Origin: Beroe forskalii
Taxonomy: Eukaryota > Ctenophora > Nuda > Beroida > Beroidae
Reading direction: 5' to 3'
Length of the DNA: 64,000 nt
Assembly (NCBI GenBank): GCA_011033025.1
Contig: WFMF01000020.1
Location: forward strand, 930,001-994,000
Position 1 is the stretch's first letter. Each line of letters opens with the position of its first letter. This document shows, piece by piece, positions 21,801-24,800 of this stretch. Made by a program: the position numbers and the translations under genes. Below the pieces are notes generated by a model. That model ran no database searches. It was not told the DNA's origin and worked only from the letters and a program-made list of their open reading frames with translations.

Positions 21801-24800
21801 GTTCAGTGGTTTCAGGCGCATAATTTATGACCAGATACACTTCTATTTGACCACCCATGAGACATCTACGCCCAATAAGGGGCAAAAAAGGCAGTTTTTA
21901 AGCCGAAAAACGCGATTTTAACCCCCATAACAGACAGAAAATGGCTGATTTCGGGATTCTGAAGTATGGTATGTCTTTCTTAGGTCGTCCATAGATGGCG
22001 TGCAAATTTTCAGCTCAATCGGCCAAAGCTTTTCGATTTCGGATCTTGGGTGCCTCAGAAATGAAGAACGTCCTGGATCACTGTTTTGAGAGGTACAAAT
22101 AGGGTTTTTTGGATTTTACAGGAAAACAAAGGAAAACTGGCGAATATCATTGGTTCAGTGGTTTCAGGCGCATAATTTATGACCAGATACACTTCTATTT
22201 GACCACCCATGAGACATCTACGCCCAATAAGGGGCGAAAAAAGGCAGTTTTTAGGCCCAAAAACGCGATTTTAACCCCCATAACAGACAGAAAATGGCTG
22301 ATTTCGGGATTCTGAAGTATGGTTTGTCTTTCTTAGGTCGTCCATGGGTCACCACAGCCGAAAATTTATGAAATTTCTGTAAATAAAAAGTCTGAACAGT
22401 ATATCCAATGCAAATGTGTGACCATAACTAAAGCAATCATTGAAGGGCCTGAAGAAGATTAGTGCTCAGTGGTCTATCTAAGTCATCGAAGTATCCTTTG
22501 ACACTGACCAATCAGCGTTCGAATTCACCATCACCTCACTCGCTGATTGGCCAATCACCTGAGTCTTCCTGAGTAGGAAATGAGCTACCACCATGTTCAG
22601 CAGATGATCCTCCTCTATCCGGGAATGTCCCATGAAACACAGGTGGTTAGAGGTCAGCTCGTCCTCCAGGAAAGTCTTACGCTGCATCAGCAGCACGGAG
22701 GCTACGTTGGTGGTGAACAGGGCCGGGTCTGAAAGAGGGGAGGACGTTAGAAAGCCGAGCGTATAACAGCGTAAATCGATGTCAGAGTGAACTGGTGTCA
22801 GAGTAAACTTGTGACGGAATAAACTGGTGTCAGAAGTAACTGGTGTCAGATTGAACTGGTGTCAGGGCAAACTGGTGTCAGAGTTGACTTCTGTCCGAGT
22901 AAACTAGTGTCAGAGTAAACTGGTTTCAGAGTATACTGGTACCAGATTAAAGTGGTGTCAGTGTGAACTGATGTCAGAGTGAACTGATGTCAGAGTACAC
23001 TGGTGTCAGAGTGAACTACACCAGCTAACATGGTAAACTTATGGATTAAAAACTGATGTCAGAGGAAATGTAAACTGATGTCAGAGTAAACTGGTGCCAG
23101 AGTTAACTGGTGTCAAAGGATACTGGTGTCAAAGGATACTGGTGTCATATAAGATGGTTGTCACTTCCCACTCACCAGCTAACATGGTATCTGGATCTAA
23201 ATGCACCGCCCCAGGCAGATGTCCAGCCTCGTACTGCATCTTAGGTCTGCAGTCCACTACCAGGTAGTTGATACCCTCACAGCTGGTTTTATGAAGGAGC
23301 TCTGGGATGGAGATGGGCAGACACAGCGCCTGGGAAAATGTTAAACATTGGCAATATATTGATGTGGAAATTTAGCGATTTCACGGCAAAAAATCCCCGC
23401 ATTTTTGAACCCCCAGAGTATGATCCCCAGGATTATTTTCCCATGACCATCACCATGAACAGTCAACGCAATTTACACCTACAACTCGCGAGCTGATTGG
23501 TCAATGTCATGGAGAAAATCGTAATTTAACGCCATGGTAACCAGGGGGAAATGAATATTGGATTATGTCACATTGCTACTCGATGATTCAGCGGTTTATG
23601 GAAATAGGAAATACACAGCTTGTTAAATTTTTTCATCATTCTTCAATCCTCATTGCAAAGCGTGTACATCATTACATCAGGGTGTACTGTACATTAATTG
23701 TATAGTACTCGTGTACACATCAGTACTTCAGTAACGTAACATCAGTCCATAATGAACAGTACTGTACTGCTTTACAGCAAGTACATAACCTAATACTCTA
23801 ACAGAGAGCCTGAGCCTGTTCAGTACAATGTACAAGTAATATTTACTATTGCACATTTACTATTACATTTACTATTACAAATTAGTATTACAATTTACCA
23901 TTACATAACATTTACTATTGTCTATCTACATTTAATAAGGGCACATTGGGCAACCCCAATTATTTGTGGCTGTTTGTATCTAGGAGATCAATTATCTTTC
24001 TGAAACTCTGAAATGATAATAAACTGTCGTTAATGAGGTATACTCAATGAACCTCTCAAACCTGTGAAAGGGAAGCGAAGTTAGACTCGGTTGGCGCGTT
24101 GCCAAACAGTTGGGCGTGGTAATCGTGTCTGAAACTGGCAGGTGTCCTTTCTCCGTAGTACTTTGCAAGGGACATGAAATCCTCGATATCCTCCACAGAG
24201 AGACTGTCAGGAAACGTGGTGATCTGACTAGCGATCTCCGAGCTGCGGGAGAAAATAATATTAGGCATGAGCTTTTCATCAAACATGCGAATAAATTCAC
24301 TGTTATATCTAAAGCGAAGTCAGTTCCTCTTTCGGCAATCTCATCAGTTGCCATGGCAATCCTCATGCGGTACCATAGCAATGTAACACGTTACCACGAT
24401 ACCACGTTGCTGTGAACTCACCAATCCTCGGTCTCCAGCTGGTTGAGGATGTAATCCCTCGCGTTAACGAGTATCACGAGTCCCAGGTAGAAGACCATGA
24501 AGGGGTCGCCTTGGAGCAGGTACCGCGTCCACATCTCACGTACCACTTGCTGATCACACTTACCAACGTACAGCGAGCGGAACTGAGGAGGGGAGCGTTA
24601 CTGGGGGAGTGTCACGCGTTACTATGGAAACATCACGCGTTACTATGGCAACATCACGCGTTACTATGGCAACATCACGCGTTACTATGGCAACATCTCG
24701 TGTAAATATGACATCATGTTGTAACAACGGAACCATCGCTGCGCGTAAAGCTCCGGAGCGCACTTCTTGGTGTCCAGGAAAGTACAGAGTTCAGGGTCGT

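Follow-up and report, generated by a model that had tools for sequence, protein, structure and literature searches.

A putative intron without GT-AG ends, bounded by a direct repeat, in TBC1D23 of the comb jelly Beroe forskalii, and a possible minority class of such introns

How might a conserved gene be expressed when the stretch that interrupts it offers no GT-AG pair in the right frame? TBC1D23 of Beroe forskalii raises this question within the 64,000 nucleotides of contig WFMF01000020.1 analysed here (positions 930,001 to 994,000; hereafter the window). On the minus strand, the coding sequence is split by a 150-bp stretch with the hexamer GTTCCG at both flanks (24728-24733 and 24578-24583). 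Both copies, listed in a preliminary description of the locus, were verified, and they are the only two in that orientation (CGGAAC on the plus strand) within 24001-25500, with a spacing of 150 bp. The gene lies on contig C248 of the 216-Mb assembly (1134 contigs), and an assembly search found no second TBC1D23 locus. The relevant features are as follows.

22300..26916, minus strand: approximate span of the TBC1D23 exons, placed by eye; seven of the eight placed introns are GT-AG
24733..24856, minus strand: upstream TBC1D23 exon with acceptor AG (CCTCAG), from the 6jl7 alignment
24728..24733, minus strand: upstream GTTCCG copy, end of the upstream exon, from sequence inspection
24583..24732, minus strand: intervening 150 bp, TT...AG (24584-24733 if GT...CA)
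24612..24697, no strand assigned: 21-bp tandem array of 4.1 copies inside the intron, from a genome-wide minisatellite family
24578..24583, minus strand: downstream GTTCCG copy, start of the downstream exon, from sequence inspection
24422..24582, minus strand: downstream TBC1D23 exon with donor GTGAGT, from the 6jl7 alignment

The gene had been named as TBC1D23 from the sequence alone, and once joined, its exons align to chain 6jl7 (TBC1D23) of the Protein Data Bank (PDB) with an E value of 3.5e-96. Removing the interior together with one GTTCCG copy restores a tryptophan followed by FRSL (W|FRSL), the join previously held to be required, and the alignment with 6jl7 runs without a gap across this junction. 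The remaining TBC1D23 joins were placed by eye, and some of them fall at gaps or ends of the alignment. If retained, the 150-bp stretch would bring TAG TAA into the frame, and it must therefore be removed for the TBC1D23 protein to be made. The possible ends are TT-AG (24732 to 24583) or, one base earlier, GT-CA (24733 to 24584), exactly as had been described. Read-through with TAA and TAG decoded as glutamine, conceivable for a length divisible by three, was considered and dropped by eye, the neighbouring introns being ordinary.

We listed the GT-AG, GC-AG and AT-AC pairs near the junction, and none yields W|FRSL; the stretch thus falls outside the U2-type GT-AG introns. The GT adjoining the exon end, combined with the AG that precedes the second GTTCCG copy, is one nucleotide off frame. 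Two in-frame GT-AG options exist within 45 nt, each at a cost of about 12 residues, and the mildest of all alternatives, a GC-AG pair, loses four residues (AQRW). The enumeration agrees with the earlier statement that no in-phase GT donor lies near the exon end, rules out a hidden GT donor or a shifted acceptor, and confirms the original observation on this intron.

The sole mild way out for TBC1D23 is a base error. One G might be missing, through an assembly error or a real one-base deletion, at the GG exon end or at the CAG|TTCCG acceptor, the intron being otherwise a plain GT-AG intron. An extra G at either junction indeed produces GT-AG ends; the resulting donor (ATG|GTTCCG) has a score of 3.5 bits, slightly under the fifth percentile (3.6) of the 64 GT-AG donors surveyed below, among which a T at position +3 is common (16/64). 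Two one-base frameshifts in a conserved exon of CCT1 indicate that the assembly contains single-base errors or decayed gene copies, and for this reason we gave the missing base more weight and our preferred explanation less. Most conserved exons are nevertheless free of frameshifts (the exceptions are CCT1, the end of CCT2 and one PRPF8 copy), it would be a coincidence that an exact 6-bp repeat sits just where the frame is restored, and the further cases described below, one of them with identical ends in two gene copies, would stay unexplained. A missing base could by itself account for TBC1D23 and is a serious rival there, though on balance we consider it rather unlikely.

We aligned conserved proteins to genomic loci with a spliced aligner that permits any intron ends. 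The guide proteins were rechecked for the six cases without GT-AG ends. The first alignment run returned introns in CCT6 and CCT3 that lacked GT-AG ends and had perfect junction repeats. The partly hand-curated sample comprises 70 introns from 15 gene segments, 64 with GT-AG ends and six without, a fraction that hand placement and the choice of genes might bias in this modest sample from one assembly. Excluding the TBC1D23 intron, through which the phenomenon was ascertained, five of 69 introns lack GT-AG ends; they make up 5/33 in the chaperonin genes, as against 0/29 in WDR5, RUVBL1, MCM3-MCM6 and PRPF8. The junction repeats of the six measure 19, 11, 11, 11, 6 and 5 bp. All six stretches would introduce an in-frame stop if kept, and PDB alignments are gapless at every one of these junctions (TBC1D23, both in CCT3, both in CCT6, and CCT8).

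The sample was assembled from 64 rows retained by a script, which dropped seven others on flank quality; three of the dropped rows look like good GT-AG introns, with repeats of 6, 6 and 0 bp. Two rows with misaligned ends were removed (CCT2 3072 and CCT7 4318), three were replaced by hand after sequence inspection (CCT2 668, CCT3 1316 and CCT8 478), and eight TBC1D23 introns were added through junction strings typed from the sequence. The MCM8-like loci (L048, L049) and the second gene copies (L044, L047, L053, L035) stand outside the 70, as does PRPF8 past its first exons, where one copy (L036) has exon frameshifts and the other (L035) an array. The five chaperonin introns without GT-AG ends are as follows.

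CCT6 first intron, locus L037, offsets 829-962, minus strand: repeat CACAGGATGAC
CCT6 second intron, locus L037, offsets 1490-1858, minus strand: repeat TTGAGATCATG
CCT3 first intron, locus L039, 665-919: repeat GATCAGAACCT
CCT3 second intron, locus L039, 1290-1439: repeat CAGCTTGGGGACTAAATTC
CCT8 intron, locus L040, from 488: repeat of 5 bp, read as GT-TG

TBC1D23 had been taken as one odd intron; five further introns, in three chaperonin genes, lack GT-AG ends and have repeats of 5-19 bp. The second CCT3 intron is the strongest case besides TBC1D23. Within 45 nt, no GT-AG pair keeps its frame, and its counterpart in the other gene copy (L044) has an 18-bp repeat and GT-AG options that all change 27 or more residues. 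Since the intron is present in two gene copies, a single sequencing error cannot have produced it. The two copies lie about 40 kb apart in inverted orientation on contig C558 and might be alleles or duplicates; their exons differ at 30 of 1482 bases (2%), and their introns are more diverged than the exons and differ in length. The idea that the introns change abnormally fast relative to the exons was abandoned after all CCT3 exons had been compared.

The remaining chaperonin introns leave more room for conventional readings, and all six might be ordinary GT-AG (or GC-AG, AT-AC) introns in an animal whose proteins are slightly changed. In-frame GT-AG pairs are available at the cost of one conserved residue in the first CCT3 intron, two in the second CCT6 intron and one in CCT8, and the first CCT6 intron could be read as AT-AC with one residue added, as GC-AG with two lost, or as GT-AG with five lost or nine added; U12 RNA is present in the genome. 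The changes would nevertheless hit conserved stretches: PDB chains of the same subunits retain the residues that the GT-AG readings of the first CCT3, second CCT6 and CCT8 introns would drop. Such a reading would, moreover, cost TBC1D23 12 residues, and it is not available for the second CCT3 intron. We therefore regard ordinary introns throughout as quite improbable.

A perfect 6-bp flanking repeat is also what a disruptive insertion with a target-site duplication would leave. The insertion would remain unspliced in one allele, with the intact allele missing from the assembly, and a second haplotype may indeed be missing, TBC1D23 having been found at a single locus and some other genes twice. 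Chaperonin genes are essential, and broken copies would hardly be tolerated. The combination of a repeat with non-GT-AG ends is nevertheless seen in both CCT3 copies, and two times at CCT6, for which the typing of eight chaperonin loci gave a single locus. This explanation appears unlikely to us, somewhat less so than ordinary introns throughout.

We compared the junction repeats with mispaired controls, in which the donors of the six introns were paired with the acceptors of other introns (414 pairings). The longest repeat in these pairings was 5 bp, seen in 11/414, and none reached 6 bp. Five of the six introns thus exceed the mispaired range, and CCT8, with 5 bp, lies within chance. The excess of long junction repeats extends to ordinary GT-AG introns. 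Among the 64 of them, repeats of 9 bp or more occur in three, where 4032 mispairings predict 0.16; at 6 bp or more there are nine (4.0 expected) and at 5 bp or more 14 (11.3 expected). CCT7 holds GT-AG introns with junction repeats of 15 and 11 bp, and one PRPF8 copy has a 9-bp repeat, as against GTAAGG and 4 bp in its sister copy. In a reference-free scan, which took repeats of at least 10 bp and counted each pair on both strands, AG stood slightly more often before the second copy (43/527) than before the first (30/527).

Taken together, the existence of a class of repeat-bounded non-GT-AG introns in this genome is moderately supported, the TBC1D23 stretch is likely a member of it, and the genome may hold a recurring class of odd introns instead of a single accident. 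The class would be a minority, defined by a direct repeat common to both junctions, 5-19 bp long in the six introns, and by the lack of GT-AG ends at every placement within the repeat. A frame-compatible AG could serve as the 3' end in five of the six introns (TTTCAG, CTCCTCAG twice, TTTTTGAG and ATCACAG), and we infer from it that an ordinary U2 spliceosome would use a normal AG acceptor. The 5' end would then be picked at a non-GT position, that is, through a relaxed 5' site, and the repeat would presumably be the leftover of the intron-making event, either an insertion or the repair of a staggered break. That the 150 bp are a TBC1D23 intron of this minority class, spliced by the ordinary U2 spliceosome with an AG acceptor and a non-GT 5' end, is our preferred explanation, to which we give about even chances. 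The sequence itself shows the repeat, the frame, the need of the protein for this join and the class in the sample, and from these we infer the splicing, the position of the cut within the repeat, the machinery and the origin of the repeat. Possibly, the repeat itself guides the cut.

The splicing signals fit this picture to varying degrees. The pyrimidine content before the placed 3' end ranges from 0.45 to 0.75 in the six, and only TBC1D23 exceeds the GT-AG mean of 0.69. Unusual pairing between the intron ends was not found for the group when duplex energies of the 40-nt ends were compared with those of canonical introns: the fractions of canonical introns pairing as strongly or more strongly were 0.06, 0.19, 0.41, 0.50, 0.92 and 0.98, with the second CCT3 intron in the strongest 6% and another of the six in the weakest 2%. 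U12-type introns begin with ATATCCTT or GTATCCTT, and by eye neither motif occurs at the 5' ends of any of the six. Ten copies of U1 RNA were found in the genome; of the four that were read (L054-L057), two have the usual 5' end ATACTTACCTG and two have ATACTAACCTG. The ATACTAACCTG end would pair with GTTAG donors, which share the T at +3 counted above (16/64).

A more far-reaching model might be drawn from the same data. The comb jelly would remove a minority of its introns regardless of a GT donor, with the cut set by the junction repeat and a normal AG; a duplication at the junction would give rise to such introns, and where the repeat starts with GT they would become ordinary introns. We consider this model rather unlikely. 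Removal might also take place in the DNA. Ciliate internal eliminated sequences are cut from the DNA with one repeat copy kept, and if the cut fell precisely between direct repeats, it would not matter which dinucleotides stand at the ends. An assembly made from whole animals would, however, be expected to show mostly the excised form, and several repeat-bounded introns have proper GT-AG ends, which makes DNA-level excision very improbable in our judgement.

The interior of the TBC1D23 intron had been described as five copies of a 21-bp repeat and was taken to indicate a young insertion. A 21-bp array is present, as 4.1 copies at 98% with degenerate units on either side and not as five clean copies. 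The suggestion of youth is not supported: an assembly search gave at least 53 matches to the unit, including the query itself, on at least 11 contigs, so that the unit is a genome-wide minisatellite, and by eye related 21-bp units occur in both neighbouring TBC1D23 introns, which have GT-AG ends. The direct repeat at the junction is compatible with an origin by insertion or repair and gives no date. By eye, 21-bp arrays of the GTAACGCGTGATG family begin soon after apparent 5' splice sites (loci L014, L015 and L017; window 24340-24420 and 25030-25080), and the unit itself looks donor-like. Also by eye, an array in L018 contains acceptor-like units, and pieces made of an acceptor and the beginning of its exon occur a second time in the upstream intron of TBC1D23 and of WDR5 (window 25250-25400 and 29790-29920).

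We also considered a transposon or introner family covering the whole intron. In some introner families, an insertion that duplicates 3-9 bp turns into an intron, according to passages of PMC9860276. Assembly searches with the TBC1D23, second CCT6 and first CCT3 introns found no repeat family spanning the whole intron among the matches listed. The matches to the TBC1D23 query, among those listed, were confined to the array part (positions 111-218 of 301), the 39 other matches listed for the second CCT6 intron lay at positions 210-349 of 368, and the 40 listed for the first CCT3 intron lay at positions 26-126, with one at 104-164, of 254. Since the matches are internal to the introns, they argue against a mobile introner, and such a family was rejected for these three introns. 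In the second CCT6 and first CCT3 introns, the internal matches look like later nested insertions.

Several known systems resemble these introns in part. New introns of Daphnia pulex carry a direct repeat of 4-12 bp, one copy at either end, read as traces of staggered-break repair, and 118 of 120 derived introns are GT-AG, as stated in parts of PMC4202315. The direct repeat common to both junctions is shared with B. forskalii, where it measures 6 bp in TBC1D23 and 5-19 bp across the six; unlike in Daphnia, six of 70 introns here lack GT-AG ends. Euglenid nonconventional introns combine non-canonical borders with frequent direct repeats at the junctions, their ends being joined by RNA pairing, and for a new euglenid intron insertion or staggered-break repair was argued (both from sections of PMC4770533). 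The borders and repeats are alike, whereas the six introns here show no end pairing as a group. An origin by insertion or staggered-break repair, as proposed for Daphnia and for the new euglenid intron, would fit the present introns by analogy. In Amoebophrya, more than 60% of introns are non-canonical, and direct repeats of 3-5 nt overlap the boundaries, accompanied by inverted repeats of 8-20 nt in a subset, as portions of PMC7789003 describe. Non-GT-AG introns with boundary repeats are common to both organisms, but they form a small minority in B. forskalii, with repeats up to 19 bp.

The closest animal parallel in splicing is Fritillaria borealis, in which, according to part of PMC13326754, the U2 spliceosome removes non-GT-AG introns, the 5' end of U1 is conserved and fewer than 10% of introns are GT-AG. 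B. forskalii would likewise be an animal with spliced non-GT-AG introns, and two of its four U1 copies read keep the usual 5' end; here, however, such introns are a minority (6/70). We found no report of ctenophore introns of this kind in the literature searched, which lay mostly outside subscription journals. If the preferred explanation is correct, conserved ctenophore genes in which such introns are a minority would be one more example among animals, on a distant branch, with the odd introns sitting beside ordinary ones within the same genes. The tolerance of the spliceosome for non-GT donors and the seeding of introns by repeat-making repair would then become testable.

Several further observations concern the assembly and the window. 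The two one-base frameshifts in CCT1 (locus L041, on a 60-kb contig) lie at minus-strand offsets of about 730 and 914 and might be assembly errors or signs of a decayed copy. In PRPF8, copy L035 carries a tandem array of about 57 bp per unit that repeats an exon piece (GPVGKGPGCGF) at minus-strand offsets of about 5700-8850, and copy L036 has several frameshifts in an exon. Rfam searches at the gathering threshold gave no match in the window or in the whole mitochondrial contig (L010, L011). This contig, C1134 (13,339 bp), encodes a divergent COX1, a COX3 and a pair of antiporter-like subunits. Of seven long frames scanned on it, three had no Pfam match, one of them directly following the larger, ND5-like antiporter frame, and an ARAGORN search of 2844 bases gave no tRNA. 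In parts of PMC6991124, which also reports RNA reads of the species, the mitochondrion of B. forskalii was described as lacking tRNA, using translation table 4 and carrying unidentified frames past ND5. On this one contig, the animal would be placed as a ctenophore near Beroe. Within the window, large tandem arrays with 354-bp and 52-bp units occupy 15027-22347 and 34327-39090, and an open frame on the plus strand at 8923-9783 resembles, by eye, the end of a retrotransposon reverse transcriptase.
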